DNA of 48,349 nt, taken from contig JAUNCG010000014.1 in NCBI GenBank assembly GCA_030526715.1, positions 1-48,349 of the forward strand, read 5' to 3'. The notes beneath the pieces are model-generated. The model searched no databases. It was not told where the DNA came from and saw only the letters and a list, made by a program, of their open reading frames with translations. The position numbers were made by a program, and so were the translations under genes. This document shows, one piece after another, positions 6,122 through 48,349 of the stretch (position 1 is the first letter of the stretch; the number at the start of each line of letters is the position of its first letter). The stretch comes from Eubacteriales bacterium (GTDB taxonomy: Bacteria; Bacillota; Clostridia; Lachnospirales; Lachnospiraceae).

Positions 6122-6334
6122 ATTCTTACCTCCGCTTATATAATATTTCTTTTGTAAATACATCATATTCTATAATACGAAATACTTCGTCAAATATCCA
6201 GTAAAATTCATAATTTATTTTGATAGCAGATTGCGGTATCAAGTATATAACACATGCAGGTGCACCCGGTCAGTATACGTGGCATATGAAAACAGCCGGT
6301 ATACGATCCCAGTGATGCAAATGATAAAAAAGTA

Positions 6335-8568: not shown

Positions 8569-8747
8569 ATGAAATCCTCCTTTATTAATAACAACAGAAC
8601 GCGCTTGAAACGATTCTGTCGTTTACTGATAAACAGTATATGAAAGAAAAACAATTTGGTGTGTTGCGTAAAGGGGATAGGATTTGAAGGGAAAGTACGG
8701 TATAATGAAGCATAGTAAAAAGATAACAGACAGGATGTGGTGATAGC

Positions 8748-24267: not shown

Positions 24268-24310
24268 AAAATGCGGAGGAATTTCATTATCTGAGATTCC
24301 TCCGCATTTT
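24268..24310. terminator. Bidirectional terminator after ppk1 and the flippase gene
   Basis: A strong stem with arms AAATGCGGAGGAAT and ATTCCTCCGCATTT, a loop of about a dozen bases, and T-rich sequence on both outer sides. It marks the end of the folC-ppk1 operon. Confidence 0.9.
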
Positions 24311-25767
24311 TATTTTTTCTTCATAGTTTTTATGATTTTCAGAAACTGAGGAAGTATAAATTTCACCGCCATCAGCACGCCGATGAGCAATACGCTGTAG
24401 CGAAGCAGAATGTGACATTCATAGAGCAGCATACTCACGCAGCATAGTAGAAAATAACCCAGCGAAATCAGTGCAGTTTTCTTCAAAGGCACCAGTAAGG
24501 TACCGGTGATGTGGTACTCGGCCCAGCACTGCAGTAAAAGTAATATAAAATAGGATGCAGCAGTAGTGTAGGCCGCCGCCATATAACCAAATTGTCTGAT
24601 ACAGATATAATTCAAAATGACATTGATGATCATGGTGACCACTGTGGTAGCTGCGACATACCCTGTTTTTTTGTAGTAATTCTCTACCGCGGAATAGATA
24701 TAGCTGAAAAAGCGGAAGAGGGTTCCCACGATCATCGGTGCGGACAGATAAATAGCCGAGCGATATTTTGCAGGTCCCAGAATCGTTACGACCTCAGGAG
24801 CAAGTAATACCAGAAACCATGAAATCATTCCGAAACCATGCATGATAAAGGTCCATGGCTTTTCTACATCAGCTTCTTCTCCACGGGAAATCTTTTCAAA
24901 CAGCCAAGGGAGCCATGCATTCCATACAGAATCCTCCAAGATCCAGATGATAAAGGAAACGGTGGTTCCAAGAGCAATGATGGAGGCGGCGGATTTGGAT
25001 ACGAGATGCCGCACCATGATTTTATCAGCCTGATTCATGATCTGGATGGAGATGGCTTCGGGGATCAGAGGCAGGCTGTAGAGCAGACCGTATTTCCAGA
25101 ACTTCAGGTTCACCGGCTTTTTTCCCTGTGTCCAGAGAAGCACCGCGATCACGGCACCGCCGATGACATGAGGCACATAAAAACCGATGACACGCAGATC
25201 CACCAGTGCATCGGCATGACCGGTACGCTTCCCGATCCAGATCAGCAGAACGGACAGGAACGTGGCGGGGATCACGGTGACGGCAGTGACAAAGGTACTG
25301 ACCTTATAACGCATGAGCTGCTTTTCCCGGCGCTGCAGATAGAGAATGCTGGTGTAAGCAAAAATATAGAGGAACGCCATGTAGAACATCAGATCATCCA
25401 GCTCCAGCCATGCCTTCACCTGTTCCCTGAAGATCATACACAGCAGAAAAACACCGCCGATAGACAGATAGGAAAGCGTCTGAGAGCTTCCGACATATTC
25501 ATTATAACGATCCCCGGTATCGTACTTGGCACGATCGACACTCTTCCACAGGCAGAGGGACAGGGTCGGTACAGCAATCAGAAGCCATGATTCATACAGA
25601 CGGATGTCCGCATACTGTTCCTGAGAGAGCAGTCTGGTATAGATAGGCGTAGTCAGAAAGGTAATACCACGCACCAGAAGCTGTGCAAAAATATAAAAAA
25701 TACCGGCTTTGACTGCCAGACGGTTTAAAGAATGGCGGTCGTTATGTTTGTGTTGAGAATTTTCCAT
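24310..25767 (-). CDS. Wzx-like oligosaccharide flippase (MVF/MATE superfamily)
   Basis: A 485-residue protein with about fourteen predicted membrane helices. The N-terminal AVKAGIFYIFAQLLVRGITF followed by TTPIYTRLLSQEQYADIRLY is typical of polysaccharide-exporting flippases that move undecaprenyl-linked sugar chains across the membrane. No glycosyltransferase genes are directly next to it, so the cargo is unknown; the envelope-polymer genes at 36-48 kb are the nearest candidates. It ends at the terminator shared with ppk1 and starts divergently from the M15 peptidase gene. Gene lies alone on the minus strand. Confidence 0.85.
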   Translation of the reverse strand: MENSQHKHNDRHSLNRLAVKAGIFYIFAQLLVRGITFLTTPIYTRLLSQEQYADIRLYESWLLIAVPTLSLCLWKSVDRAKYDTGDRYNEYVGSSQTLSYLSIGGVFLLCMIFREQVKAWLELDDLMFYMAFLYIFAYTSILYLQRREKQLMRYKVSTFVTAVTVIPATFLSVLLIWIGKRTGHADALVDLRVIGFYVPHVIGGAVIAVLLWTQGKKPVNLKFWKYGLLYSLPLIPEAISIQIMNQADKIMVRHLVSKSAASIIALGTTVSFIIWILEDSVWNAWLPWLFEKISRGEEADVEKPWTFIMHGFGMISWFLVLLAPEVVTILGPAKYRSAIYLSAPMIVGTLFRFFSYIYSAVENYYKKTGYVAATTVVTMIINVILNYICIRQFGYMAAAYTTAASYFILLLLQCWAEYHITGTLLVPLKKTALISLGYFLLCCVSMLLYECHILLRYSVLLIGVLMAVKFILPQFLKIIKTMKKK

Positions 25768-28038: not shown

Positions 28039-28728
28039 ATGCAGGTGATCATGGAGCGATTATACCTGAATTTTGTAAAAGATAATCGATGGCAATATTT
28101 GGCCAACGGCCTGAAGACGACTCTGATCGTCACTTTAGGCGCGGTGATGATCGGTATACTGATCGGATTTGTGGTAGCTGTGGTGCGTTCTACATACGAG
28201 AAGACAAAGAAACTGAAAATCCTGAATCTTGTCTGTAGGCTTTATCTGACCGTACTTCGGGGCACGCCGGTAGTTGTTCAGCTGCTGATTATTTATTTTG
28301 TAATTTTTGGTTCGGTTTCCATCAATAAGACATTTGTAGCGATTGTGGCCTTTGGCTTGAATTCCGGAGCATATGTGGCGGAGATCATCCGAAGCGGTAT
28401 CATGTCCATCGATGAGGGACAGTTTGAAGCGGGGCGCAGTCTGGGATTTAACTATCCGCAGACCATGATCTTTATTATCTTGCCGCAGGCACTCAAAAAT
28501 GTTCTGCCGGCGCTGGCTAACGAGTTTATTGTACTTTTGAAAGAGACCTCGGTAGCGGGTTATATCGCTCTGGAGGATCTGACAAAGGGCGGCGATATTA
28601 TCCGAAGCCGCACATATGACGCATTCATGCCGCTGATTGCGGTTGCACTCATCTATCTTGTGATGGTTGTGACCTTCAGCAAGCTGGTAAATATACTGGA
28701 GAGGAGGCTGCGCAATAGTGAACGCTAA
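28039..28728 (+). CDS. Polar amino acid ABC transporter permease
   Basis: A 229-residue membrane subunit of the HisM/GlnP type with about five helices. The EAA coupling loop is seen in [20 protein letters not shown] followed by [14 protein letters not shown], which contacts the ATPase. N-terminal [20 protein letters not shown] and [17 protein letters not shown] are also typical. Its start at ATG 28039 has GAGAGAGG upstream; a second ATG twelve bases on is less likely. The end overlaps the ATPase gene by eleven bases, so the two are coupled. Substrate amino acid not determined. Confidence 0.92.
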
Positions 28729-29458
28729 CGAATCCTTGATCCGGGTAGTGGATCTGAAAAAATCATTTACCGGAGTTCATGCGCTCAAAGGTGTGAGCAC
28801 GGAGATCTATCGTGGTGAGGTGGTCTTTGTCGTCGGACCTTCCGGCTCCGGAAAAAGTACGTTTTTACGATGCCTGAACCGTCTGGAGGATCCCACCGGA
28901 GGTCATATTTATTTCAACGGGGTGGATCTGATGGATCCGAAAGTTAATATCAATACCCACCGACAGAAGATGGGAATGGTATTTCAGCATTTTAATCTGT
29001 TTCCGCATATGACGATTCTGCGCAATATGACGATTGCGCCAATGAAGCTGCAGGGTGTAAGTAAGGAACAGGCGGAAGCGGAGGCTATGAAGCTTCTTGA
29101 GCGTGTCGGACTGGGAGATCGTGCCAACGCATATCCGAGTCAGCTGTCCGGCGGTCAGAAGCAGAGAGTGGCTATTGTGCGCGCACTCTGTATGAAGCCG
29201 GAGGTATTGCTGTTTGATGAGCCTACCTCTGCACTGGATCCGGAGATGGTAGGAGAGGTACTTGCAGTTATGCGTGAACTGGCACAGGAGCATATGACGA
29301 TGGTGGTGGTCACACATGAGATGGGATTTGCCAGAGAGGTGGCAGATCGTGTGCTGTTTATGGCAGACGGCCAGATTCTTGAGGAGGGCGCTCCGGCAGA
29401 GTTCTTCGAGCATCCTTCCAATGAACGTTTGAAGACATTTTTGAGTAAAGTGATATAA
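28718..29458 (+). CDS. Polar amino acid ABC transporter ATP-binding protein
   Basis: A 246-residue GlnQ/HisP-type ATPase powering import. Walker A is [13 protein letters not shown], the Q-loop is [12 protein letters not shown], the signature is [15 protein letters not shown], Walker B is [13 protein letters not shown] and the H-loop is [13 protein letters not shown]. Every catalytic element is intact. Translation starts at a GTG inside the permease gene. The operon ends at a terminator just downstream. Confidence 0.94.
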
Positions 29459-35999: not shown

Positions 36000-36028
36000 C
36001 CGAATCAAGTAAGTCCCCCGCTTCAAAT
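35997..36028 (+). repeat. Dispersed repeat, copy B
   Basis: Identical over 32 bases to 9483-9514. The TAA at its start is the stop codon of spoVAC. It lies between spoVAC and the convergent SGNH gene; no hairpin terminator is evident in this interval. Confidence 0.85.
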
Positions 36029-36051
36029 ATGGAGAGCATTACTCACAGGGA

Positions 36052-37563
36052 TCATTCGCCGCCGTCATCCTCCAGCAGAGTATATTCCGTGTGTACAGAA
36101 GGAATTCCCTCCATATTGGTTGCAAAGCAGACACTGTCGACTACACGTTGGAGCGTTTTGTCAAAGACTACAATATTGAAGCCGGGCTGATCAATCGCAT
36201 ATTCCCCTTCATTGATCACGATAGACGCAGCGGCATCCGCTGACGCATCCGCGCTGGATACTGTGAAGACAGCTCCGTGACTCGTGTAAGGACCGGAAAC
36301 GATACGTCCCGAGGCTGAAGCCTGCGTTACAACCGCACCGCCATCCAGAATCGCATAATATGCAGTCTCACTGCCGGGGGCAGGGATCGTAAGACCGAGT
36401 TCTGCAAAGCTTTGAAGCTGTGCTTCCGTCAGATAGGCTCCGGTGTTGCCGTTTACCGCGATTGCAGCGATATAATTCTCATTTGAGAGCATCTGCAAAT
36501 AGGAAGAAAGCTCCTGTTGAATCGGCAGAAGGAAAGAGTCTGCCAGCAGATGATATCTCGCTGCGGAGGCATCCCAGAATTCCCGGGTCTGTACACTCAG
36601 GCTTGTGTCAAAGCTATAGCGCGATGTAAGATAGGAGCCGAGATAGTCTGAGATCTTAAGGCATCCCCGCAGGTTTACGTGCGTTCCCTTATCATGGCTG
36701 TCTGTAGTCCAGTCAATGTTCAGTTCCTCCTGATGCAGATTCATATCAAGATAGTCGATTCCGTTCGCATCGGCAAAATCCTGTACTGAGGAAGAGAGCT
36801 CGGGAGACCACTCCATGCTGGGGACGCGGAGCATCAAAAATGCAATTCCCTTTTCATCACAGAGCTGCTTCATTTTCAGAACATATTCTTTACAGAGCTC
36901 CCCCATGGAGGATTCCTTTCCACGTGGAGTCCAAGCTTGATATTTACGGATGGCTTTGGACTTGGCAGGCTGGGTCGTCAGCTTCAGGGCAGTTCCCATC
37001 AGATAGTAATCCTTATCATAGAAGACATTGAAATCGCCTTTTTGCAGATCGTCCCATCTGGTATGATAACGCAGGAAGGGGAACAGATAATCCTTTAGAT
37101 TCTCGTCCGGGCAGTTATCCAGAATAAAGCGGACAGCCTCCCATTTGACAGGAGACCAGCGCATATAATCCAGATTCTTGCGATGATAGCCTTCGTTGGC
37201 AAAGTCATCGTCATCTACTGTACCCACCTCATAGACCACTACCTTCGGAGACTGATATTTCAAAGCTTCCCTGAGATAGTAATAGCTCATGTAGGTCTTC
37301 TGGGAGGGATTTGAAAAAACATAACCCGTGATCCCGTATTTTTCATAGATAGAGAGCGGAGAAATTCCGCAATAGGCAAAGCTCGAGCCGGTATAGAGCA
37401 CATCATCGCTGTTCTTTTCCTGTCGATAAAACGCCTGTAAACGTGTCTGTGCCTGATTACCATAGTAATTCCATTTCGGATTGAAAACCTTGGTCAATCC
37501 GGCGAGAATGATGAGGAACAGAACAGCGGCGGTAGCCATTTTCATAAATATTTTTTTTGTCAT
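36052..37563 (-). CDS. DltD-like SGNH/acyltransferase partner protein, extended
   Basis: A 503-residue membrane-anchored protein, start ATG 37563 after AAGGGTG. After one N-terminal helix (TAAVLFLIILAGLT) it has an SGNH-like fold with LYTGSSFAYCGISP (serine motif), PKVVVYEVGT, and the late DSHDKGTHVNLRGCLKISDY block that supplies Asp and His. This resembles DltD and other proteins that pair with MBOAT acyltransferases to finish acyl transfer outside the cell. At ~500 residues it is longer than typical DltD; the extra C-terminal ~130 residues (LTEAQLQSFAELGLTIPAPG, then SSADASADAAASIVI) look like a separate beta-rich domain. It is the last gene of a dlt-like operon. Confidence 0.75.
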   Translation of the reverse strand: MTKKIFMKMATAAVLFLIILAGLTKVFNPKWNYYGNQAQTRLQAFYRQEKNSDDVLYTGSSFAYCGISPLSIYEKYGITGYVFSNPSQKTYMSYYYLREALKYQSPKVVVYEVGTVDDDDFANEGYHRKNLDYMRWSPVKWEAVRFILDNCPDENLKDYLFPFLRYHTRWDDLQKGDFNVFYDKDYYLMGTALKLTTQPAKSKAIRKYQAWTPRGKESSMGELCKEYVLKMKQLCDEKGIAFLMLRVPSMEWSPELSSSVQDFADANGIDYLDMNLHQEELNIDWTTDSHDKGTHVNLRGCLKISDYLGSYLTSRYSFDTSLSVQTREFWDASAARYHLLADSFLLPIQQELSSYLQMLSNENYIAAIAVNGNTGAYLTEAQLQSFAELGLTIPAPGSETAYYAILDGGAVVTQASASGRIVSGPYTSHGAVFTVSSADASADAAASIVINEGEYAIDQPGFNIVVFDKTLQRVVDSVCFATNMEGIPSVHTEYTLLEDDGGE

Positions 37564-37574
37564 ATAGGTCACCC

Positions 37575-39176
37575 TTAATATTGCATATAGATAAATCCTG
37601 CGGCGTCATAGCCATGACCGTAGATTCCGAAGGTCAGGATCACAAATACGAGACCGAAGGCCAGTGTCCAGCGAAGCCAGAGATTCTGCGTCTTTAACCA
37701 GTCACGGATATGCATGCCATGGTTGCACTCCTGAATCACCTCGATCATCAGCAGGAGCAGGCAGGCAAACACCAGAACGAAAAAGTCCGGAGCAGCCAGT
37801 CCCAGCCGGAAGATGGAGCCATCAAATAATTTCCACAGATTCGGCACTGTGAACATGGATTTCAGCATAATGAGAGAGGCATGAAAATCCGGAGTCACGA
37901 AAATGACACGACCGATCTCCACCAGAAAGAATGTCCGGAGAATCTGAAACCAGCGCCAAGAGGTACAGTTCTGATTGATATGAAGCCGGTCGCCCAGAGC
38001 AATCAGACGATCCTGATATTCCATAGAGAGGATCGTGAGGATTCCGTGATAGACGCCGAACAGAAGAAACTGCGTACCGGCGCCATGCCATGCGCCGTTG
38101 GCGAGCCACAGTATCATACAAGAGACGTAGGAGGGGAGTACCTTCCCTAAATGCACCTTCCCTTTCTTCCTCAGAGACTTTGTCACAGACTGAGAGAGTG
38201 AGGATAGCGCGATGGGATACATCAGGTAATCCTTGAACCATGTGCCAAGCGTAATGTGCCAGCGACGCCAGAATTCCGGAATATCTTTTGAAAAATACGG
38301 GCGTTCGAAGTTATCCACCATATGGACGCCGAACATTTTCGCAGCGCCGCGGACGATGTCGATACCTCCGGAGAAATCTCCGTACATCTGTGCGGCATAT
38401 GCGAGAAGAGCTACCCAGAATTCCACACCGGCATAGTTCAGATAATTTTGGAATACCAGATCACACATGATACCTGCGCGATCCGCAATGACCATCTTCT
38501 TGAACAATCCCCAGAGCATCAGATAAAAGCCGTCCGTCAGATTTTCAAAATCAAAGCTGTGTCCCGGAAAAAGCTCTTCGGAGAGCTGATGATATCGGGA
38601 AATCGGGCCCTGAAGAATCTGCGGAAAAAAGGAGATGAAAAGAGCCGTCTTAAAAAAGTTGTGCTCGGCCTTTGACTTTCCGCGATAGACATCCACGAGA
38701 TATCCGATGGCCTGAAAGGTATAAAAGGAAATTCCCAGAGGCAGCCCGACATGGAGCAGCGGGAAAAATCCTTCGGCGCCGCCGAAGAAGGAGGTATTGA
38801 TCTCTGTAAAGATCAGATCATAGAACTTCAATACCACAAGCATGCCTACATTGATCAGCGCGCTGGCTGCGATACAGAGGCGCTTGCGATGGATGTTCTG
38901 TTTTTTTATAACCTTCTTATCGCCGTCGAGTTCACCGGCTTTGATCCTTCGAAGCTCTTCCTTATAGCGCAGATCGGATTTCTCAATCAGCAGACTGAGC
39001 AGATAGACACTGATACAGGTCACAGCGATGAAAACAGACATGGTGCGGCTTGCCCGAACATAAAAGTACACACTGAGTATGAGAAGCCATACCCACTGTG
39101 CCTTTTTCGGGAGCAGATAGTACACCAGAATTCCGATCGCAAGAAATAAAAAGAAATTCAGTGTTGTAATACCCAT
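37575..39176 (-). CDS. MBOAT-family O-acyltransferase, DltB/AlgI-like
   Basis: A 533-residue membrane protein with about a dozen helices. Start ATG 39176 (MGITTLNFFLFLAIG) follows GAAGAGG; longer ORF residues upstream are in the carrier gene. MBOAT motifs are GLPLGISFYTFQAIGYLVD, QILQGPISRYHQL, PEFWRRWHITLGTWFKDYL and the catalytic histidine in ANGAWHGAGTQF. The family moves an acyl group from a cytoplasmic carrier across the membrane; DltB uses D-alanyl-carrier protein. It is longer than DltB and closer in length to AlgI-type acylases. Two bases separate it from the carrier-protein gene. Confidence 0.88.
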   Translation of the reverse strand: MGITTLNFFLFLAIGILVYYLLPKKAQWVWLLILSVYFYVRASRTMSVFIAVTCISVYLLSLLIEKSDLRYKEELRRIKAGELDGDKKVIKKQNIHRKRLCIAASALINVGMLVVLKFYDLIFTEINTSFFGGAEGFFPLLHVGLPLGISFYTFQAIGYLVDVYRGKSKAEHNFFKTALFISFFPQILQGPISRYHQLSEELFPGHSFDFENLTDGFYLMLWGLFKKMVIADRAGIMCDLVFQNYLNYAGVEFWVALLAYAAQMYGDFSGGIDIVRGAAKMFGVHMVDNFERPYFSKDIPEFWRRWHITLGTWFKDYLMYPIALSSLSQSVTKSLRKKGKVHLGKVLPSYVSCMILWLANGAWHGAGTQFLLFGVYHGILTILSMEYQDRLIALGDRLHINQNCTSWRWFQILRTFFLVEIGRVIFVTPDFHASLIMLKSMFTVPNLWKLFDGSIFRLGLAAPDFFVLVFACLLLLMIEVIQECNHGMHIRDWLKTQNLWLRWTLAFGLVFVILTFGIYGHGYDAAGFIYMQY

Positions 39177-39177
39177 A

Positions 39178-39408
39178 TCAATCCTCTTCCTGAAGCTGTT
39201 GGACCAGTTCCCAGATGGCCTGAACCGTATTGAAATGTTTCGGCTCCAGCTCATGGATCGGAATGCTGATATCGAATTCCTCATCCAGCTCGGATACGAT
39301 AGAGATGATGTCGAAGGAATCAATGATTCCGTCATCAATGATAGCAGTCTGACTCATGAAGTCGACATCCGGTCTCACATCGTTTAAGATTTCCAGTACT
39401 TTTTCCAT
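39178..39408 (-). CDS. Acyl/aminoacyl carrier protein, DltC-like
   Basis: A 76-residue carrier protein, start ATG 39408 after AAGGAG. The phosphopantetheine attachment serine is in IIDDGIIDSFDIISIV (DSF in place of the usual DSL), with the acidic helix ELDEEFDISIPIHELEP following. It would carry the substrate activated by the adjacent adenylation enzyme to the MBOAT protein. Length and helix pattern match DltC and other discrete carrier proteins. The operon order is adenylation enzyme, carrier, MBOAT, SGNH protein. Confidence 0.88.
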   Translation of the reverse strand: MEKVLEILNDVRPDVDFMSQTAIIDDGIIDSFDIISIVSELDEEFDISIPIHELEPKHFNTVQAIWELVQQLQEED

Positions 39409-39470
39409 AATTTTATTCTCCTTTTCCTTCATTTAAGCTCATGAAACGTTAAAAGCATGAGTTCACATAA

Positions 39471-40997
39471 TTAATCCAGCGCTTCGGCCTGCGTGAGCAG
39501 AAGCTGCCGATCGATCTTCATATTCTTATTCAGAGGGATCTCCTCAAGTATCACCGTCTTCTCGGGAAGCATATATTTCGGAAGCGCTCTGCGAAGTCCG
39601 CCCAACAGATATCTCACGGAGAGCTCCTCACCCTCGGCAAACAGGACAATACGCTGATGCTCCTTATCATAGATAGCCGCAGATGCACGCACAGCCTCCA
39701 GCGCGTTGGCCGCAGTCTCAATTTCCCCCAGTTCTATGCGATGTCCGTGATGCTTGATCTGAAAGTCCTGACGGGACAGGAAGCGATATCCGCCCTCAGG
39801 CAGACATTGTGCAAGATCGCCGGTGTCATAGACGATATCCGGATAGGCATCCTGTGTAGGATTCTGTATAAATGCAGCACAGGTCTTCTCCGGGTTCGCA
39901 TAGTATCCCATAGAGAGAAAGGCGCCGCGGATATAGATCCGACCGGTCTCTCCGGGAAGGACGGGAGAGTGATCCTCCTTTAGAACCAGCATCTCAATAT
40001 TAGGGAAGCAACGTCCGAGAGGAAGGGTCTCCTGTTCGGAAAACTCACGGTCTACGATATAGTAGGTACAGTTCCCGGTAACCTCTGTGGGAGCATACAG
40101 GTTCACATACATCACATCAGGAAGATAGCGTCTCCAATAATTCAGATGAGGAATCGGAAGGATCTCACCGGAAAAGAGAACTCTCTTCAGATAATGAAGA
40201 TTGTCATGCTCCAGAGCGTTCATCTTCACTACGACGCTGAGAGCGGAGACTGCCCAGATAATGGTAGTCACCCGGTACTCATTCATGGCATCGACAAGCT
40301 TTTTGGTAAAAGAAAAATAAGTCTTCGGGAAGATCACAAGGGTAGCGCCAACAGAAAGCATAGTGTAGATATCCTTGGCGGATACGTCAAAATCAAAGGG
40401 AGCCTGTCCGCCGAGCACATCCTCTGAGGTAATGCCGAACGTGGAGGTAAATTCCCGAATAAAGCTTATAATAGAGCGGTGATTCTTGATGACGCCCTTC
40501 GGGACGCCGGTGGAGCCGGACGTGAAGATCATATACAGAGGATCTACATCCAGAGTGGAGGCACAGATAGAGGCCATGAGGTCATCCTGAGCCTGTGTCT
40601 CCATGATATCTTCAAGATACCAGACAGATACCTGCTCCGAGTCAAGCTGTGATGCGATGCGTTCCTGCTTCTTTTGAGCGAGGACAGCGATCCCGGTACC
40701 TCGGAAGGTATGGAGGATCGTCTCCATACGGGACATAGGCATCTGCACATCCACAGGGACATAGAAGCATCCGCTGCATGCAATACCGAGAAAACTGACA
40801 ACACTGGCAGCATCCCGATCTACCAAAACGATGACGGGCCGACGATAAAAATGCTGCCCGGCGATATAAGAACCGATCACTTTTGCACGGCGGTATAATT
40901 CTGAAAAGGTAATCTCCTCCGTCTGATCGATCAGTGCGGGCTTATCCGGATAAGCGGACGCAGCCGCAGAAAGTAATTCAATCACATTATGTGACAT
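39471..40997 (-). CDS. Amino acid adenylation enzyme, DltA-like
   Basis: A 508-residue adenylate-forming enzyme that should activate an amino acid with ATP and load it on the downstream carrier protein. Core motifs are IFTSGSTGVPKGVIKNH (A3), FDFDVSAKDIYTML, LYAPTEVTGNCTYYI (A5, normally YGPTE), YDTGDLAQ (A7), RQDFQIKHHGHRIELGEIE (A8) and NMKIDRQLL with the A10 lysine. It lacks fused carrier or condensation domains. DltA from Bacillus uses D-alanine; here the substrate pocket around the A5 motif (YAPTEVTGNCTYY) is unlike that enzyme, so a different amino acid is possible. It heads the dlt-like operon, with a consensus promoter about 40 bases upstream. Confidence 0.88.
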   Translation of the reverse strand: MSHNVIELLSAAASAYPDKPALIDQTEEITFSELYRRAKVIGSYIAGQHFYRRPVIVLVDRDAASVVSFLGIACSGCFYVPVDVQMPMSRMETILHTFRGTGIAVLAQKKQERIASQLDSEQVSVWYLEDIMETQAQDDLMASICASTLDVDPLYMIFTSGSTGVPKGVIKNHRSIISFIREFTSTFGITSEDVLGGQAPFDFDVSAKDIYTMLSVGATLVIFPKTYFSFTKKLVDAMNEYRVTTIIWAVSALSVVVKMNALEHDNLHYLKRVLFSGEILPIPHLNYWRRYLPDVMYVNLYAPTEVTGNCTYYIVDREFSEQETLPLGRCFPNIEMLVLKEDHSPVLPGETGRIYIRGAFLSMGYYANPEKTCAAFIQNPTQDAYPDIVYDTGDLAQCLPEGGYRFLSRQDFQIKHHGHRIELGEIETAANALEAVRASAAIYDKEHQRIVLFAEGEELSVRYLLGGLRRALPKYMLPEKTVILEEIPLNKNMKIDRQLLLTQAEALD

Positions 40998-41040
40998 AGA
41001 TTCGTCTCCTTATGAAAGATCTGGGTAAAAACCCTTTGAA

Positions 41041-41069
41041 AGTATAGCATAGAAGAAATAAAGATTCAA
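41041..41069 (-). promoter_or_regulatory. Sigma-A promoter of the dlt-like operon
   Basis: On the minus strand TTGAAT (41064-41069) and TATACT (41041-41046) are separated by 17 bases. The adenylation gene starts 43 bases downstream. Confidence 0.78.
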
Positions 41070-41094
41070 TAGGCGTATAGAGGTGAGAAATAAG

Positions 41095-41120
41095 AAAACA
41101 CCGCAATTTAGCGGTGTTTT
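41095..41120 (-). terminator. Terminator of the L,D-transpeptidase pair
   Basis: A perfect ten-base-pair stem, AAAACACCGC (41095-41104) and GCGGTGTTTT (41111-41120), with a six-base loop. On the minus strand it is followed by CTTATTTC. It lies 14 bases after the stop codon. Confidence 0.88.
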
Positions 41121-41133
41121 GCTGTGAAATCTG

Positions 41134-42189
41134 TTAGTAATTCAAAACGGTGGTATCCACCGGACAGCTGTCATAGACAACCTTCAGAGATTCGGGATTC
41201 ATACGAATACAGCCGTGAGAGGCAGGATATCCCATCGGAGAACCGAGACGTCTGTGGATCCAGTTACCCTTCTGGTATTTCGTACTATAGTGGAAACGAA
41301 GACCATAGCCGCCGTAGGTAGCATAGCTGGTCGTCTTGAGCTGCACGCGATACAGACCCTTTACAGAAGGCGTCTCAAATCTGCCGACGACGCACGGCCA
41401 AGTATTCACGAGCTTCCAGTTGCGGGCAGAGCCTTTGAAGAGGGAAACCTTACAGGTATAAAAATTCACCCAGATCAGATAATTTGTCTTGCTGGAGTAG
41501 CCCTTGCGGTTCACATAGCTCTCTTTTGCAGCTGTGGTATAATCGATCTTGTTGTTATAATAGAAATCCGTATAGGTCAGCGCAGAGCCCTGTACCTTGA
41601 TCTTCTGATTTTTCTTATAGGCACCGAGCGTAGGCTGGTTGGTTCTGCTGAAGGCAACGATCTGTGTGCCTTTTTTCAGAGTGATCGTCTTACCGGTAGT
41701 AAGATTCTGCGCCTTGATATCACGCTTCACCGTAGCCTTATAGTAAGTACCGTGTACATCTTTGGTAGAATTGAGATTTACCGTCTTCTTGTTGGAAGAA
41801 GAGCCGGTCACGGCATCCTTGGAATACGGTACTCCGCTGACTGCATCGGAAAACTTGCTGTAAACGACCTGTCCTCCGGATTTGACGAAGCTCTTCACAC
41901 GGAAGGTAGCCGTGAGATCCGGCTCCAGTCCGGTGACCGTGTAGCTGGTCTGCTTCGTGGTGGCGATCTGCTTGTAGGTAGCGTTTGCAGCGTTATATTG
42001 GAAGATCGCGTAACCGGAGGCGCCTCTTACGGACGACCATTTGAAGGAAACGGATTTGATGCCTGCCTCGCGAAATTCAATGGACGCCGGCTTTGCGGGA
42101 GTCTTTGCTTTTGCGGATACAACGCCGGAGCAAAGAAATGCAAGCAGAAGCATCAGCAGAATAGGTGCAATACGTTTGATTCGTTTCAT
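41134..42189 (-). CDS. L,D-transpeptidase with FnIII domain (downstream copy)
   Basis: A 351-residue exported YkuD-family enzyme that can form 3-3 peptidoglycan crosslinks. Start ATG 42189 follows GAAAGGA. After a signal peptide (APILLMLLLAFLCSG, cleavage after VSA) comes an FnIII-like domain (SVSFKWSSVRGASGYAIFQY...FRVKSFVKSG). A middle beta domain (YYKATVKRDIKAQNLTTGKT) precedes the YkuD domain with the catalytic motif SHGCIRMNP and the upstream histidine in WIHRRLGSPMGYPA. It is a paralogue of the neighbouring gene, sharing domain order and the middle domain. The two are 36 bases apart and probably cotranscribed. Confidence 0.9.
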   Translation of the reverse strand: MKRIKRIAPILLMLLLAFLCSGVVSAKAKTPAKPASIEFREAGIKSVSFKWSSVRGASGYAIFQYNAANATYKQIATTKQTSYTVTGLEPDLTATFRVKSFVKSGGQVVYSKFSDAVSGVPYSKDAVTGSSSNKKTVNLNSTKDVHGTYYKATVKRDIKAQNLTTGKTITLKKGTQIVAFSRTNQPTLGAYKKNQKIKVQGSALTYTDFYYNNKIDYTTAAKESYVNRKGYSSKTNYLIWVNFYTCKVSLFKGSARNWKLVNTWPCVVGRFETPSVKGLYRVQLKTTSYATYGGYGLRFHYSTKYQKGNWIHRRLGSPMGYPASHGCIRMNPESLKVVYDSCPVDTTVLNY

Positions 42190-42225
42190 GGGAAATAAAT
42201 CCTTTCTCATTGTAGTCAGTTCATA

Positions 42226-43245
42226 TTAAAAAGTTACAACTCTGGTACCGAGCTTACAGTTATTATAGATCCACATCAGGTTATCGGGAGCCATTCGGAT
42301 ACAGCCATGAGAGACTGCAGCCTGTCCTCTGTTGCTGTCCACATAATTGTGGAATGCGTTTGCGGAGTTATATTTTTCACTGTAATTTGTAAAATAGATA
42401 AGAGGATAACCGCCATAGCCCTCTCTCTTGTACCCCTTAATATCATAAATGCCGACCGGTGTTCGGGTGTTGAGCGCGCCGATGATACAGGGAATGGTAC
42501 GGACGAGCTTCCATTTGCCGCGACTGCCCTTAAATACATTCACTCTCAGGGTATACTGGCTGACCCAGATCAAATAATCAGTCTCACTATAGTAGGCACG
42601 GCCATTGACGTAGGACTCTTTTACCTTTGTGGAATAATCCTGTGTGGTAGTCTTCAGACTGGTATAATTCAGGCTGTTATGTGAGATCTTAACAGAAGCC
42701 TTCAGCTTGCCGTTCACATAGTAGTAGCAGACCGGCGTACCGTCGTATGCAGTAGCGACAACCTGCGTCCCCTTTTTCAGTGAGATCTTTTGATTATTCT
42801 GACGATTGGTCAGCGTCATATCTTTTTTCAGGGTCGCATTATAATAAGCGGTATGTACGCTCTCAGCAGCTTTGTTCATCTTGGTCGCCTTGATGGTGAC
42901 GGTATTGGAAAATCCGCTGTAGAGCTTGCCGTCCTTGCTGTTCTTATAAGCGCGTACCCTAAAGGTATATTTCTGACCGACCTTCAGATTGCCCTTCATA
43001 TAGGAATCGCGTTTGGTAATGGCGATCTTCTTGAAGTCCTCAGAGTCTTTGCTCATATAGACCTCGTACCCATCCGCTCTTCCGGAAGTATTCCACTTCA
43101 CGGTGATGATTTTTGTCTTAGAACTGGAGTGGCGCAGATTTGTCGGCGTCGCGGGATGTTCCGCAGCGGAGGCGGAAACACCTGTCAGCATCAGACAAAT
43201 CAGAAGCGTACTCAGAAGTAAGAAAAATCGATAGTTTGTCTTCAT
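42226..43245 (-). CDS. L,D-transpeptidase with FnIII domain (upstream copy)
   Basis: A 339-residue exported YkuD-family enzyme. Start ATG 43245 (MKTNYRFFLLLSTLLICLML) follows AAAGGAG; the longer frame upstream to 43461 overlaps promoters and is not coding. It has a signal peptide ending SASAAE, an FnIII-like domain (IITVKWNTSGRADGYEVYMS, FRVRAYKNS), the shared middle beta domain (YYNATLKKDMTLTNRQNNQK), and a YkuD domain with SHGCIRMAPDNL and the histidine in NAFHNYVD. Paralogy to the adjacent gene points to tandem duplication. Such enzymes make beta-lactam-insensitive crosslinks. Confidence 0.9.
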   Translation of the reverse strand: MKTNYRFFLLLSTLLICLMLTGVSASAAEHPATPTNLRHSSSKTKIITVKWNTSGRADGYEVYMSKDSEDFKKIAITKRDSYMKGNLKVGQKYTFRVRAYKNSKDGKLYSGFSNTVTIKATKMNKAAESVHTAYYNATLKKDMTLTNRQNNQKISLKKGTQVVATAYDGTPVCYYYVNGKLKASVKISHNSLNYTSLKTTTQDYSTKVKESYVNGRAYYSETDYLIWVSQYTLRVNVFKGSRGKWKLVRTIPCIIGALNTRTPVGIYDIKGYKREGYGGYPLIYFTNYSEKYNSANAFHNYVDSNRGQAAVSHGCIRMAPDNLMWIYNNCKLGTRVVTF

Positions 43246-43323
43246 AGTAACTCCTTTCTCTGTAAAAAAATATTCATAAAATTCCCCCCGAATATGTCTG
43301 AAATTATGAATTTTATATGAATT

Positions 43324-43352
43324 ATCATAATAAAATCGCAGTCGTATGTCAA
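43324..43352 (-). promoter_or_regulatory. Promoter of the L,D-transpeptidase pair
   Basis: On the minus strand TTGACA (43347-43352, perfect) and TATGAT (43324-43329) are 17 bases apart. Confidence 0.82.
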
Positions 43353-43367
43353 TAGAATTTCCCTTTA

Positions 43368-43396
43368 TTGAATAATTTTGCCGGATAGTGTATAAT
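43368..43396 (+). promoter_or_regulatory. Promoter of the yfhO-GT2-ATP-grasp operon
   Basis: TTGAAT and a perfect TATAAT are separated by 17 bases. It is back to back with the divergent L,D-transpeptidase promoter, with only 15 bases between the two minus-35 boxes, so one regulator could influence both. Confidence 0.8.
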
Positions 43397-43439
43397 AAAA
43401 AAATATTTCTTTTTAAAAGTATTCCTGAGGAGAATTTAC

Positions 43440-46151
43440 ATGAATCATAAAGAAAATACACATGAGAAGAGCGAGATGTCCGTAAAAAGATATGTTATGG
43501 TCTATACGATCGGCTTCTGTGTGTTGTTTTTGGCGGCGTTTGCTCTGGTATTTATCACTGGAAAAGGGTTGCTGTGGACAACGGACGCCAAGCCTCAGTA
43601 TCTGACCTATCTGCAGTATATGGGACAGTATATGAGAGACATGATAAGAAGAGCGCTGCAGGGAGATGTTACGCTGCGTATGTTCGACTTTTCCATTGGA
43701 ATGGGGGAGGATGTGCGGTCGGTTTTTCGTATGCATCTGACAGATTTTCTGAGTGTGCTGATCCCGTCTCGTTATACGGAAATATTTTACAATATTATGA
43801 TGGTGGTACGCTATTATCTGGCAGGGCTTGCCTTTTCCGCCTTCTGCTTTTACAGATCCCTTTCGAGATTTCGTACGCTGGCAGGGGCTATGGTCTACGT
43901 ATTTTGCGGGTATGTTTTTCACTTTGGAGTGAAGCATCCGGTGTTTACGGCTCCGCTGATTTTTCTGCCTCTGCTGCTGATCGCGCTTGACAGGCTGATT
44001 CGGAAAAAACGGGGATGGGTATTGCTTTACAGCTTTATGGTGGGGCTGTCCCTGATGACGAATTATTACTTTTTATATATGAACACTTTTGCCATGGGAG
44101 TGTATGCGCTTCTGGTATTTGGCGAGATCTATCCAAAGGGACAGGGACGCGCGGCGGAGTTTGGTAGGATGATGTGGCGCATCGTCAGCGGCTATGTGTT
44201 GGGATGTGGTATGGCGATGGTCTTCTTTCTTCCGACCATGGCGCGTCTGATGAATTCTGTGCGGGTTGGCAGCGGTAAGGAGCTGGAGATGAGCCTGTGG
44301 CATTATCCTTCATTGCGAAGCCTTTCGGTACTGATGAATCTGATCACTCCGGCCAGAGACGCCGGATCAGCCACGTATTTGAATTTTGCAGTGATCGTGA
44401 TCCCGGCGGTTACGATACTTTTTGTGAGAAAATGGAGAGAGCATTGGCGATTAAAGGTCGTATGGCTCGTAGAGCTCATGCTGCTGGTTCTGCCGGCAGG
44501 AGGATATATGATGTCCGGCTTCAGCGCTTTTAATAACCGTTGGACGTATCTGGTTTCTTTCACGGCAGCGCTGACCGTTACGGTAATGCTTGAAGAGCTC
44601 CAAAAAATGACCTTGCGACAGATGCAGGCGCTCGCAGGTATTACGGCGGTATACGGAGTGCTGACGATTATTTTCCGCAGAGATGATATACGTACATGGG
44701 CGGCCTTTGTACAGCTTTTGCTCTGTACGGGGATACTTCTGAGGATGAATCGAAAAAAGCTCTGGTCCGGGCAGGCTGGTCGCAGGATTCTTGCGGGTAT
44801 TGTGTGCGTATCGATAACCGTGAACGGGATGTGTACCTTTGTGCCGTTTATCACTACGTTTCTCTATGAGCTGTACGGCTGGAATGAAGCGGCACAGAGC
44901 ATGAGAGATTCTGAGTATCAGTATCTGGCGGCGCTTCCCGATGATGAGTTTTACAGGACAGACTCTCACCTAGTGGTGGATAATTATGAAAATATGCCGA
45001 TTTTTCTTGGATATCACGGCATCTCGCTTTACAACAGCGTGGTCAACGGCGAAGAGGTTCGCTATCATAAGGAACTGGAGAACGCCGGAATCAGTGCGAT
45101 CCACCGCATCTACTCCATGGATGGAAGAGCGCCGATGGAGGCACTGGCGAATGTAAAATATTACATGACGAAGGTCGGAGAAGAAAAAGCGGTACCTTAT
45201 GGATTTTCCGCCGACGAGGAGCATTCCGGACAGGATTATCTGATATATCAGAATGATTATCCGCTGGCCTTTGGATATACCTATGATACATGGATATCGG
45301 AGGAAGACTACGAAGCTATGGACGGTCTTACCAGACAGGAGGCTATGCTGGATGGCGTGGTGATCTCCCCAAATGCGGATGTTACCGGTATGCAGCAGTA
45401 TGCTTTGAAGAGCTATGCGACGACAGAGAAGCCGGTTCTGTTGTCCTCGGACGAGACTCTGAAGATCAAGCAAAACGGAACGGTTTACCGTGTGAAGGAA
45501 GCAAATGCGTCTATGAAGCTATCCTATCAAAAGAAAGCAGGATATGAGGCATATCTTCATTTTAAGAATCTGCAGAATGATACGGAATACAGCAGGATCT
45601 ATGTGAACACCTCCGATCTGCAGAAAAAGATCGTGGTGCGCGGTCTGACGAGAGACTATTCTCTTGGGAGAACGGAATATCTGGTATACCTCGGCTACAG
45701 TGAGACGGAGGGCGAGGATACTATGGATGTCATCTTCGGATCCAGAGGAAAGTACACCATGGATGATTATGAGATCTGCTATATACCACGCGATGAGTAT
45801 GCGCAAAAGATTGCCGCAAGAAATGAAGGCGCCATGCAGGAGGTGACGTTTTCCATGAATCGGATAGATGGAACGGCTGTCTTGAAGGAGGATAGGCTCA
45901 TGGTGCTGTCCGTGCCCTACAGCAGTGGCTGGAAGGTCTATGTGGACGGAGAGAAGATAACGAGCTTCCGGGCCAATTCCATGTATACGGGCATACGTCT
46001 GTCCGCAGGCGAACACAAAATAGAGTTGCGTTATACGACTCCCGGACTTATACTGGGAGGAGAGATCAGCGCGGTGAGCGTGTTGATCTATCTTGGATTA
46101 TGGATGATGATAAGAAAGAGAAAGAAGGTACAGGAATGCGGTATTCAGTAG
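43440..46151 (+). CDS. yfhO: YfhO-family membrane glycosyltransferase-like protein
   Basis: A 903-residue membrane protein with about twelve N-terminal helices, a large extracytoplasmic C-terminal region, and one final helix (EISAVSVLIYLGLWMMI). N-terminal residues KGLLWTTDAKPQYLTYLQYM include the conserved aspartate in the first outside loop typical of GT-C fold enzymes, and FSIGMGEDV follows. In Bacillus, YfhO transfers GlcNAc from a lipid carrier to lipoteichoic acid. The next gene is a GT2 enzyme like its partner CsbB, supporting the same role here. The end overlaps that gene by 16 bases. Ribosome site GAGGAG. Confidence 0.88.
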   Translation: MNHKENTHEKSEMSVKRYVMVYTIGFCVLFLAAFALVFITGKGLLWTTDAKPQYLTYLQYMGQYMRDMIRRALQGDVTLRMFDFSIGMGEDVRSVFRMHLTDFLSVLIPSRYTEIFYNIMMVVRYYLAGLAFSAFCFYRSLSRFRTLAGAMVYVFCGYVFHFGVKHPVFTAPLIFLPLLLIALDRLIRKKRGWVLLYSFMVGLSLMTNYYFLYMNTFAMGVYALLVFGEIYPKGQGRAAEFGRMMWRIVSGYVLGCGMAMVFFLPTMARLMNSVRVGSGKELEMSLWHYPSLRSLSVLMNLITPARDAGSATYLNFAVIVIPAVTILFVRKWREHWRLKVVWLVELMLLVLPAGGYMMSGFSAFNNRWTYLVSFTAALTVTVMLEELQKMTLRQMQALAGITAVYGVLTIIFRRDDIRTWAAFVQLLLCTGILLRMNRKKLWSGQAGRRILAGIVCVSITVNGMCTFVPFITTFLYELYGWNEAAQSMRDSEYQYLAALPDDEFYRTDSHLVVDNYENMPIFLGYHGISLYNSVVNGEEVRYHKELENAGISAIHRIYSMDGRAPMEALANVKYYMTKVGEEKAVPYGFSADEEHSGQDYLIYQNDYPLAFGYTYDTWISEEDYEAMDGLTRQEAMLDGVVISPNADVTGMQQYALKSYATTEKPVLLSSDETLKIKQNGTVYRVKEANASMKLSYQKKAGYEAYLHFKNLQNDTEYSRIYVNTSDLQKKIVVRGLTRDYSLGRTEYLVYLGYSETEGEDTMDVIFGSRGKYTMDDYEICYIPRDEYAQKIAARNEGAMQEVTFSMNRIDGTAVLKEDRLMVLSVPYSSGWKVYVDGEKITSFRANSMYTGIRLSAGEHKIELRYTTPGLILGGEISAVSVLIYLGLWMMIRKRKKVQECGIQ

Positions 46152-47146
46152 TGATACCCTGTTATAAATCGGATCAGACGATCCGCAAGGTTGTGGAACT
46201 GACTATGGAAGAGCTTCGGACGCTCGGAATTCATGATTTTGAGTTTGTGCTGGTAGATGACTGTTCGCCGGATGGCGGAAAGACAGTGGAGGCTCTGCGG
46301 GGTCTGGTGCGGGATTACCGGGAGGTGAAGGCGGTGGAGCTTGCGAAGAATGCGGGACAGCATAATGCGATTCTGGCAGCGTTGAATTACGCCACAGGGG
46401 ATGCGATCATAGCCATGGATGACGACATGCAGACGCACCCATCCCAGCTGCCTGTTTTGCTGGAGGAATTTGCGAAGGGGTATGATATCGTCTACGGTTA
46501 TTATCCGGAGAAAAAACACAGTAAATTCCGCAATTTCGGAAGCTATGTGAACTATATGTCGGTTCGCATTCTGTTGAAGAAACCAAAGGAACTGAAGACC
46601 TCCAGCTTCTGGATCATCCGGAAGTTTGTGCGGGATTACGCGGTGGAATACAAGAGCGCGTATACACATCTGCAGGGTCTGTTCCTGAGGACGACCCGGC
46701 ATATCAGCTCGGTGCCGATCCGTCATTTTGAGCGTGAAGTGGGGACCTCGAATTATACGCTCTCCAAGCTGCTGCATCTGTGGTCGAATATCATCGGATT
46801 TTCTATTGTTCCGCTGCGCTTGGCGATGTATGTGGGGTATGCTTTTTCGGGAGTCGGGCTCATAGGAACGGTATGGCTTCTGATTAATAAATGGTTGCAT
46901 CCGAACACACAGCTTGGATGGACCTCTATGCTGATGGCGATCTGCTTTTTCTCCGGAATCAATCTGCTGTTTCTCGGACTGATCGGAGAGTATATCGGAA
47001 GGATCTTTCTTGGCATGAGCAGGAATCCGCAGTATGTGGTACGTCAGGTGGATGTATACGATAATGGAAAGGAGAAAGGGTATGAAGAAACTGATGATCA
47101 TGGGGGCGGGCATCTATCAGGTACCACTGTATCTGAAGGCTCGTGA
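46136..47146 (+). CDS. GT2 polyprenyl-phosphate glycosyltransferase, CsbB/GtrB-like
   Basis: A 336-residue enzyme, start ATG 46136 (MRYSVVIPCYKSDQTIRKVV) after GAAGG. The GT-A domain has FVLVDDCSPDGG and the DxD metal motif AMDDDMQTHPSQL. Two C-terminal helices (LAMYVGYAFSGVGLIGTVWL and the one after GWTSMLMAICFFSG) anchor it, and FLGLIGEYIGRIF is typical. Such enzymes load a sugar on undecaprenyl phosphate for use by a GT-C transferase such as the upstream YfhO protein. Its last ~22 residues overlap the start of the next gene by 65 bases in another frame, and this polar tail (ETDDHGGGHLSGTTVSEGS) is likely not conserved. Confidence 0.9.
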   Translation: MRYSVVIPCYKSDQTIRKVVELTMEELRTLGIHDFEFVLVDDCSPDGGKTVEALRGLVRDYREVKAVELAKNAGQHNAILAALNYATGDAIIAMDDDMQTHPSQLPVLLEEFAKGYDIVYGYYPEKKHSKFRNFGSYVNYMSVRILLKKPKELKTSSFWIIRKFVRDYAVEYKSAYTHLQGLFLRTTRHISSVPIRHFEREVGTSNYTLSKLLHLWSNIIGFSIVPLRLAMYVGYAFSGVGLIGTVWLLINKWLHPNTQLGWTSMLMAICFFSGINLLFLGLIGEYIGRIFLGMSRNPQYVVRQVDVYDNGKEKGYEETDDHGGGHLSGTTVSEGS

Positions 47147-48260
47147 ATTGGGGATCTATACGATTGCTGTCAGCATTCCGGGAAATTATCCGGGATTTCA
47201 GTATGCAGATGAGGTCTGCTATATCAATACGGTAGACTATGACGCCGTGCTCGCGGCTGCAAGGGAGAAAAAGATCGACGGTATCGTGACGGCGGGTACC
47301 GACGTGGCGGTCATCACCATCGGTAAGGTGTGTGATGAGCTCGGACTTCCGGGACTGAGCTTCGATGCGGCACGTGTGGCATCCGACAAGCTGCTTATGA
47401 AGGAAAAATACGAGGAGTTCGGAGTGCGTACAGCGCGCTATCGCAAGATTTACTTCGAAAAGAACGATCTTCAGGAGCAGACGGCGGCGCTGCAGTTTCC
47501 GCTGATCTTTAAGGCAGTGGATTCCTCCGGAAGCCGTGGAATCGTCCGGGTAAATACGCAGGAGGAGTTCGAGGAAGCGCAGAAGGTGGTCAAGAGCGTC
47601 ACCCACAAGGATTACTATATCGTGGAGGAGTTCATCGAAGGAGAAGAATTTGGCGCGCAGGCCTTTGTGCTGAACGGAAAGGTGCAGTTTATACTTCCGC
47701 ATGGAGATTATGTGTTCCATGGGGATACCGGAGTTCCGGCCGGACATTTTGCACCGTATGAGCTTCCGGCAGGGGTGACGGAGGATGTGCGGGAGCAGAC
47801 AGAGCGTGCCATCGAGGCTATGGGTCTGAATAATTGCGCGATCAATGCGGATTTCATTATGCGCGATCAGAAGACCTATGTACTGGAGATCGGAGGAAGA
47901 GCGGGAGCTACCTGTCTGGCAGAGCTGGTGTCGATCTATTATGGGTATAACTATTACGAGAAGATTATTCAGACAGCACTGGGAGAGGAGCCCAAGTTTC
48001 CGACTGCGCAGGCGGTTCCCAATGCCAGCAAGCTTCTGATGAGCGACCGCGACGGCGTGATCAAAGAACAGCGAAACGATAACGAGCCTCAGGAGAATAT
48101 CTTTGAGATTCAGTTCGACTATCAGGTAGGAGATCATGTGCGCAGGTTCCATGTAGGACCGGATCGTATCGGTCATGTGGTGACGAAGGGAAAAACACTG
48201 GATGAGGCGGTGCGCACATTGGATGAGGCGCTGCAGAGGATTCATATCACAGTAGAATAA
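47082..48260 (+). CDS. ATP-grasp enzyme of unknown substrate
   Basis: A 392-residue ATP-grasp protein, start ATG 47082 (MKKLMIMGAGIYQVPLYLKA) after AAAGGAG inside the GT2 gene. The N-terminal pre-ATP-grasp fold is followed by LIFKAVDSSGSRGIVRV (glycine-rich loop), YIVEEFIEGEEFGAQAF, and the metal site in YVLEIGGRAGATCLAEL. These enzymes join a carboxylate to an amine through an acyl phosphate. The protein resembles carbamoyl-phosphate-synthase-like ATP-grasp ligases often seen in glycan and peptide loci. Its place behind yfhO and a CsbB-like gene suggests it adds an amino acid or similar group to an envelope sugar or its precursor, which is inference. Confidence 0.85.
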   Translation: MKKLMIMGAGIYQVPLYLKARELGIYTIAVSIPGNYPGFQYADEVCYINTVDYDAVLAAAREKKIDGIVTAGTDVAVITIGKVCDELGLPGLSFDAARVASDKLLMKEKYEEFGVRTARYRKIYFEKNDLQEQTAALQFPLIFKAVDSSGSRGIVRVNTQEEFEEAQKVVKSVTHKDYYIVEEFIEGEEFGAQAFVLNGKVQFILPHGDYVFHGDTGVPAGHFAPYELPAGVTEDVREQTERAIEAMGLNNCAINADFIMRDQKTYVLEIGGRAGATCLAELVSIYYGYNYYEKIIQTALGEEPKFPTAQAVPNASKLLMSDRDGVIKEQRNDNEPQENIFEIQFDYQVGDHVRRFHVGPDRIGHVVTKGKTLDEAVRTLDEALQRIHITVE

Positions 48261-48270
48261 AAGAAGAAGG

Positions 48271-48299
48271 AAAGGGCTTCGCTTTGCGGAGCTCTTTTT
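48271..48299 (+). terminator. Terminator of the yfhO operon
   Basis: A 12-base-pair stem (AAAGGGCTTCGC and GCGGAGCTCTTT, two G-U pairs) with a three-base loop, ending in TTTTT. It is also the likely recognition hairpin for the group IIC intron that follows. Confidence 0.85.
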
Positions 48300-48302
48300 G
48301 TA

Positions 48303-48349
48303 GTTTGCGCGCCATGGGCGCGCTCTAACAGGTGTAAGTCCTGAACACG
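48303..48349 (+). mobile_element. 5' end of a group IIC intron, cut by the window edge
   Basis: Starting at G48303, GTTTGCGCGCCATGGGCGCG, then CTCTAACAGGTGTAAGTCC and TGAACACG, aligns by eye with the first bases of the Oceanobacillus iheyensis group IIC intron (GTGTGCCCGGCATGGGTGC, then AGTCTATAGGGTGAGAGTCC and CGAAC). A hairpin of GCGCGCC and GGCGCGC corresponds to the first stem of domain I. The intron lies three bases after a Rho-independent terminator, the standard insertion site of group IIC introns. Any reverse transcriptase gene would be beyond the window. Confidence 0.8.

Follow-up and report, generated by a model that had tools for sequence, protein, structure and literature searches.

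The YfhO, GT2 and ATP-grasp genes

We analyzed a 48,349-nucleotide stretch of DNA (the window) from a Lachnospiraceae bacterium. The window is the entire contig G000:C101, from a genome of 2.4 Mb that is 98% complete. Near its end the window carries three plus-strand genes in successive head-to-tail overlaps. The first encodes a 903-residue membrane protein of the YfhO family (43440..46151; PF09586, 338.6 bits, E 1.2e-100, cut-off 28.5), a predicted sugar transferase of the outer face. The second encodes a family 2 glycosyltransferase (GT2; 46100..47146; PF00535) that resembles ArnC and PgfS and is predicted to load undecaprenyl phosphate. The third encodes a 392-residue ATP-grasp ligase with a LAL_C2 domain (47082..48260), a putative amino-sugar aminoacylase on the basis of its Pfam domains, structure model and fold matches. 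An earlier sequence-only reading had described these genes, a divergent L,D-transpeptidase gene and dlt-like genes as an envelope-modification island, and Pfam and NCBIfam searches found all of them present as claimed.

The GT2 protein likely starts at the Met at 46136, as judged by comparison with the nearest relative of the locus (L004). The ATG of the ATP-grasp gene at 47082 is preceded by AAAGGAGAAAGG, a good ribosome-binding site, and with this start the overlap with the GT2 gene is exactly 65 bases. The overlap had been read as translational nesting; it is real for this start but is not conserved, and nesting therefore carries no weight as an argument. Of 66 relatives, 37 overlap by 4 bp at the same junction, two by 1 bp and five by more than 4 bp (53, 53, 53, 131 and 131 bp), and 22 have a gap there.

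Two promoter-like sites lie back to back between the L,D-transpeptidase and YfhO genes, one for YfhO (43368..43396, plus strand; TTGAAT-17-TATAAT, 10/12 consensus matches) and one for the L,D-transpeptidase (43324..43352, minus strand; TTGACA-17-TATGAT, 11/12). They are the best two in the scanned stretch, but the number of sites in the scanned region equaled that expected from shuffles (7 versus 7.1) and the consensus matches are not evidence of function. A predicted intrinsic terminator follows the ATP-grasp gene (48269..48299, plus strand; hairpin and T-run, -18 kcal/mol, z -3.3); the hairpin was equaled by 2 of 200 shuffles and was not listed by the consensus scan. Because it follows the ATP-grasp stop, this hairpin probably closes the operon, which would then comprise three genes. 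The contig ends 89 bases past that stop; truncation of the operon by the contig end is unlikely given the hairpin and a convergent next gene in L004. No Rfam match to an RNA element at the contig end was found at E 0.1 in positions 36000-48349, and among the fetched loci a motif at this end was seen in L001 alone, a locus that is the window's DNA itself.

The ATP-grasp protein matched PF18603 (LAL_C2; 56 bits, cut-off 29.4), PF02655 (48.6 bits, cut-off 23.2) and the ATP-grasp_3 and ATP-grasp_4 families. Its structure model (predicted local distance difference test score 93.5) had the amino-acid ligase fold among its matches, and residues E269 and R273, the latter presumably with a role in amino-acid ligation, are invariant and align with 3vot. 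The enzyme shares its ATP-grasp and LAL_C2 domains and its fold with the L-amino acid ligases BL00235 (3vot) and BacD, but it is only about 20% identical and scored 46.9 bits against the BacD equivalog model (cut-off 850). We know of no sugar partner described for the BL00235 and BacD ligases. The sequence-only reading had predicted a third step that attaches an amino acid to the sugar; family, modeled fold and partner genes fit this prediction, more precisely with an amino sugar as the predicted acceptor. Two relatives of the enzyme are fused to a pyridoxal phosphate (PLP)-dependent PALP domain (L086, 532-2679; L088, 1-2073), and that of L086 resembles D-cysteine desulfhydrase and 1-aminocyclopropane-1-carboxylate deaminase.

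The best NCBIfam matches of both the GT2 and the YfhO protein were to the PgfS/PgfM1/PgfM2 system, which acts in glycosylation in Streptococcus, with scores far below the equivalog cut-offs. GT2 scored 160 bits against PgfS (cut-off 500) and 134.4 bits against ArnC (cut-off 529), and YfhO scored 93.9 bits against a Pgf-type model (cut-off 1400). To our knowledge the Streptococcus Pgf system has no ATP-grasp gene. The best solved relatives of GT2 included ArnC (9hwj, E 4.4e-35) and sll0501, and by homology it appears to be of the undecaprenyl-phosphate type. The sequence-only reading had called the pair YfhO-CsbB-like; the GT2 protein itself resembles ArnC and PgfS, and the genes linked to it suggest a different sugar (see below).

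Linkage of the ATP-grasp and GT2 genes among relatives

To follow the genes among relatives, genome contigs were scanned once for the ATP-grasp protein. This yielded 74 loci with 49-82% identity, most of them from Lachnospiraceae or other Clostridia; one belongs to Cohnella and one to Splendidivirga. Neighboring genes were called by codon usage, with some split or missed (L010; none called in L116), and their strands and names were taken from one or two representatives per cluster. In 66 of the 70 evaluable loci the ATP-grasp gene is directly preceded by GT2, the exceptions being L015, L016, L025 and L072. This count leaves out L037, whose sequence extends 208 bases beyond the gene on the upstream side, and three loci in which the gene start is missing (L059, L068 and L071). 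A codirectional YfhO gene within three genes upstream was found in 25 of 59 evaluable loci (L010, with an ATP-grasp gene not called whole, was left out), and YfhO occurs anywhere in the examined DNA of 36 of 74. ATP-grasp and GT2 protein distances were correlated across 65 loci (r 0.74), and after correction for UppS the partial r was 0.64, compared with 0.39 for the control CdsA (26 loci).

The ATP-grasp enzyme is thus a conserved companion of GT2, often with YfhO, and its firm link is to GT2. The co-occurrence survey that the sequence-only reading proposed for the three genes bears out the GT2 partner and, for YfhO, fewer than half of the loci. The separation of the ATP-grasp gene from yfhO in relatives, which that reading had named as evidence against itself, was found in part, since 34 of 59 evaluable loci lack a codirectional YfhO within three genes. 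Systems of this kind are known, and what is added to them here is genuine and conserved and comes with a testable substrate proposal. The same linkage bears on a reading in which the enzyme, like BacD, yields free dipeptides or some other small metabolite and sits beside GT2 incidentally. Its likeness in fold and domains to L-amino acid ligases would suit such a role, but the GT2 adjacency, the 4-bp overlap in 37 of 66 junctions, the UppS-corrected correlation relative to the CdsA control and the low BacD score make it highly improbable.

UppS was found in the examined DNA of 26 of 74 loci. A run of UMP (uridine monophosphate) kinase-like, UppS, CdsA and Dxr genes often lies downstream of the pair (L005, L007, L074 and others), which places the pair beside lipid-carrier synthesis. 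Three loci carry a second, divergent GT2-ATP-grasp pair with an ATP-grasp protein 38-41% identical (L035, 516-3340; L040 and L041, about 6500-8710). Behind this second pair come two genes for small transporter-like proteins that bring ArnE/ArnF to mind.

A 4-amino sugar as the predicted substrate

Genes recurring around the pair encode WecE, RmlA, RmlB, a Wzx-like protein, two small transporter-like proteins (with a weak EamA match, under cut-off) and a PaaK-like ligase. In Coprococcus catus (L070, encountered a second time as L119 from G025) they form one run on a single strand, in the order YfhO, RmlB, RmlA, two small transporter-like genes, PaaK-like, WecE, GT2 and ATP-grasp, with RmlB at 487 bits (cut-off 365), WecE at 636 bits (cut-off 435) and RmlA assigned by cluster. 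L115 has the order YfhO, WecE, GT2 and ATP-grasp, with Wzx-like and PaaK-like genes adjoining. Of the 74 loci, 20 had WecE with at least 50% identity in the examined DNA, although in one locus the match spans only 209 residues; this count was set by identity and excludes a PseC/ArnB-like protein of L072. Because WecE and Rml genes are linked to the pair, the sugar suggested is the 4-amino-4,6-dideoxygalactose (Fuc4N) made by WecE and not N-acetylglucosamine (GlcNAc).

Co-occurrence was examined in 150 family genomes that represent 149 genera. This sample overlaps the set of loci, as L005 and L070 seem to come from two of its genomes, G142 and G025. WecE was present in 13/13 genomes with an ATP-grasp protein of at least 40% identity compared with 37/137 others (P = 1.9e-7), and in 6/6 compared with 44/144 when at least 66% identity was required (P = 0.0011); the 50 WecE matches include one, in G001, that is fragmentary and scores under the cut-off. 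YfhO was found in 109 of the 150 genomes, comprising 13/13 with the ATP-grasp protein at 40% and 96/137 others. In three genomes (G143, G122 and G070) WecE lies 21-27 bases directly before a distant ATP-grasp relative.

On balance we consider it somewhat probable that the ATP-grasp enzyme joins an amino acid to the 4-amine of deoxythymidine diphosphate (dTDP)-Fuc4N, that GT2 loads the product onto undecaprenyl phosphate and that YfhO, acting on the outside of the cell, likely transfers the sugar to a wall polymer. RmlB and WecE would provide dTDP-4-amino-4,6-dideoxygalactose, and the ATP-grasp enzyme would spend ATP to form an amide between the amino acid and the sugar 4-amine. This acylated sugar would be the form that the ArnC-like GT2 takes and loads onto undecaprenyl phosphate; ArnC itself takes the N-formylated sugar exclusively (PMC12748117). 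Flipping could be performed by a Wzx-like protein in the window's genome or by the small transporter pair in some relatives, and YfhO would then place the flipped sugar on the wall polymer. The role of YfhO as an outside transferase is itself a hypothesis (PMC5836110). TagF-type or LytR-CpsA-Psr-type genes were found in 9 of 74 loci, a count that leaves out a mixed cluster called TagH that includes a window ATP-binding cassette (ABC) protein (28718-29458); because of these genes, a teichoic acid or similar wall polymer is a reasonable candidate acceptor. No finding here points specifically to lipoteichoic acid, the acceptor named in the sequence-only reading.

Several observations weigh against this pathway. 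No WecE at 50% identity was found in the examined DNA of 54 of 74 loci, many of them short, and a codirectional YfhO was missing within three genes upstream in the 34 of 59 loci noted above. WecE is frequent without the ATP-grasp enzyme (37/137 genomes), its association with ATP-grasp relatives of 27-33% identity was weak (15/28 versus 35/122, P = 0.012), and the co-occurrence statistics ignore phylogeny. A class-wide draw adds little, since the ATP-grasp protein was present in 2 of 391 genomes, one of them the window's own; both had WecE, which occurred in 32 of 391. The structure model matched the PurT fold as well as that of the amino-acid ligase. The genome to which the window belongs has its WecE and PaaK-like genes on contigs other than the window's, and the cluster around WecE may be its sole user. 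This WecE (G000:C67:8382-9497; TIGR02379, 624.7 bits, cut-off 434.85) sits in a wall-polysaccharide cluster with an RmlC-type epimerase, a Wzt-like ABC protein, glycosyltransferases, a priming sugar transferase and a LytR-CpsA-Psr protein; RmlB, over its cut-off, is on contig C10.

These arrangements leave room for a reading in which the enzyme uses another amino sugar, WecE serves another polysaccharide and their co-occurrence reflects a shared wall-sugar lifestyle. The ABC-export polysaccharide cluster around the WecE of the window's genome would fit, as would the Cohnella locus (L072), where a PseC/ArnB-like aminotransferase takes the place of WecE directly before the ATP-grasp gene. Set against them are the WecE-GT2-ATP-grasp runs of L070 and L115, WecE directly before the distant ATP-grasp relative in three genomes and the 13/13 co-occurrence, and we regard a different amino sugar as quite unlikely.

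The window holds one flippase candidate for the Fuc4N pathway, a Wzx-like gene at 24310..25767 (minus strand; PF01943, 47.5 bits) whose product is 60% identical to the Wzx-like protein adjoining the pair in L007 and 69% identical to that of L117. In the same-genus genome G121 (L117; G121:C1:4510000-4528000), YfhO, GT2 and ATP-grasp genes lie between the counterparts of window 22077-24197 (85%) and 24310-25767 (69%), and the Wzx-like gene faces them. In the window these two genes are adjacent, and some 18 kb separate them from the three-gene block, which is next to the transpeptidases there; the block has been moved or replaced relative to G121. The YfhO proteins of the window and L117 are 30% identical over 383 residues. 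No small multidrug resistance (SMR) transporter pair that might act as flippase matched at E 0.01 in the window's genome, in a search run without a positive control.

The PaaK-like protein was found in 51 of 74 loci, most commonly straight after the ATP-grasp gene, and in 6/6 genomes with the close ATP-grasp protein compared with 1/144 others (P = 4.9e-10). It retains a glycine-rich loop and a C-terminal lysine, which we take to be adenylation motifs. The copy in the window's genome lies on contig C8, is 43% identical to protein P0001 and adjoins a PanE-like gene. No PaaK-like match was found at E 1e-60 in seven genomes with an ATP-grasp protein of 40-50% identity, all of which have WecE; the ATP-grasp step is therefore placed on the sugar and the PaaK-like step atop it. 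In the subgroup that includes the window's genome, the first acyl group would thereby receive another from the PaaK-like ligase, and this second group may be a 2-hydroxy acid. The hydroxy acid is suggested by a few loci, because lactate dehydrogenase (LDH)-type genes in four loci and PanE-type genes in two genomes lie beside the PaaK-like gene. Such neighbors were seen at L114 (8145-10432), L115 (153-2682), L045, L057, L062 and L064.

The same LDH-type and PanE-type genes, and an ATP-grasp fold that leaves the acid unfixed, are compatible with an ATP-grasp enzyme that acylates the 4-amine of Fuc4N with a non-amino carboxylic acid such as a 2-hydroxy acid, or that acts after lipid loading. The LAL_C2 domain and the two fusions to an amino-acid PLP enzyme favor an amino acid instead, and a hydroxy acid would go more naturally with the PaaK-like enzyme, so we judge this variant unlikely. 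A wider proposal, which extends amino-acid transfer to Fuc4N, is possible but doubtful. Gut Lachnospiraceae may have a pathway that is the Gram-positive equivalent of Arn, in which the ATP-grasp and PaaK-like enzymes build a 2-hydroxyacyl-aminoacyl chain on dTDP-Fuc4N, the acyl group is the pass for GT2 loading and YfhO sets the sugars on teichoic acid, giving a tunable wall charge beside dlt-type acylation.

Known systems and neighboring wall genes

Three-component teichoic acid glycosylation by CsbB, GtcA and YfhO is described for Bacillus subtilis, Staphylococcus aureus and Listeria monocytogenes (PMC5836110, PMC8035078, PMC7389260). As there, GT2 and YfhO share an operon in the window and an undecaprenyl-phosphate sugar is the proposed intermediate. 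In contrast, the window operon adds an ATP-grasp ligase, the linked WecE and Rml genes point to Fuc4N instead of GlcNAc, and Wzx-like or small transporters lie near operons of this type. The operon has no GtrA gene; two GtrA matches lie elsewhere in the window's genome, one in frame with another YfhO. The latter belongs to a separate system, a reported 984-residue frame with a GtrA match followed by a YfhO match (L161; G000:C69:11226-14051). The available text of PMC5836110 and PMC8035078 makes no mention of an ATP-grasp enzyme.

The Arn pathway for 4-amino-4-deoxy-L-arabinose (L-Ara4N) comprises ArnB, ArnA, ArnC, ArnEF and ArnT (PMC12748117, PMC12650200). Shared with it are a DegT aminotransferase, an ArnC-like GT2, the predicted N-acylation of a nucleotide sugar at its 4-amine, a predicted membrane transferase on the outside and, in some relatives, a small transporter pair. 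The window system would differ in using an ATP-grasp enzyme for the formyltransferase, with an amino acid where Arn has formate, a dTDP sugar, and YfhO for ArnT. Because GT2 falls below the ArnC equivalog cut-off and scores higher against PgfS, we would say that the system works like Arn, not that it is Arn. For Clostridium acetobutylicum, an 'ATP-grasp amino acyl ligase' (CA_C2189) has been mentioned, on the basis of its neighborhood, as part of a cluster for sugar modification (PMC4000134). By its description this ligase likewise lies among glycosyltransferase and sugar-nucleotide genes, whereas its cluster is of sialic-acid type (spsE, spsF) and the available text names neither YfhO nor WecE. 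In the available text of the Creative Commons (CC)-licensed literature, outside which most subscription papers lie, we recognized no paper that connects an ATP-grasp enzyme to either Fuc4N or YfhO.

YfhO is widespread in the family, yet the sugar is known for few systems; that of two B. subtilis pairs is given as unknown (PMC8035078). The operon suggests both a sugar and its modification, and Coprococcus catus is a named isolate with the whole predicted pathway in one run. The operon also predicts a testable rule, namely that the 4-amino sugar is acylated before lipid loading. If this is true, common gut commensals would bear an aminoacylated surface sugar that is met by hosts, phages and antimicrobial peptides; the available text of the CC-licensed literature searched yielded no description of such a sugar.

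Two minus-strand L,D-transpeptidase genes lie next to the operon. The divergent neighbor of YfhO (42226..43245, with the start taken at the signal-peptide Met) encodes a YkuD-type enzyme with a fibronectin type III (fn3) domain (PF03734, 57.6 bits; PF00041), and the second (41134..42210; PF03734, 49.5 bits) has an fn3-like domain. An L,D-transpeptidase gene was found in the examined DNA of 29 of 74 loci and as the divergent neighbor in 9 of 59. A minus-strand operon at 36052-40997 follows, with genes for a DltA-like adenylating enzyme (39471..40997; TIGR01734, 271.7 bits, cut-off 559.85), a DltC-like carrier protein (39178..39432; PRK05087, 48.5 bits, cut-off 68; PF00550), a DltB-like membrane acyltransferase (37575..39176, with the start inferred at the Met of MGITTLNFF; TIGR04091, 140.9 bits, cut-off 375) and a 506-residue protein in the DltD position without a family match (36052..37572). 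DltA, DltB and DltC are all under their NCBIfam equivalog cut-offs and the operon is dlt-like only. In the window it adjoins the transpeptidase genes, but DltA or DltB clusters lie near the ATP-grasp gene in just 4 of 74 loci.

The arrangement in L004 resembles that of the window. There the YfhO-GT2-ATP-grasp operon begins with a DltA-like gene (4391-6271; 626 residues with a C-terminal extension) that overlaps YfhO by 4 bases, whereas the DltA of the window is part of the dlt-like operon. Elsewhere in the window's genome, three adenylation-domain matches in long frames (1066 and 2471 residues) at G000:C93:1715-9239 probably represent a nonribosomal peptide synthetase. A class A RNase P RNA at window positions 10523-10868 (minus strand) was the sole Rfam gathering match in the window.

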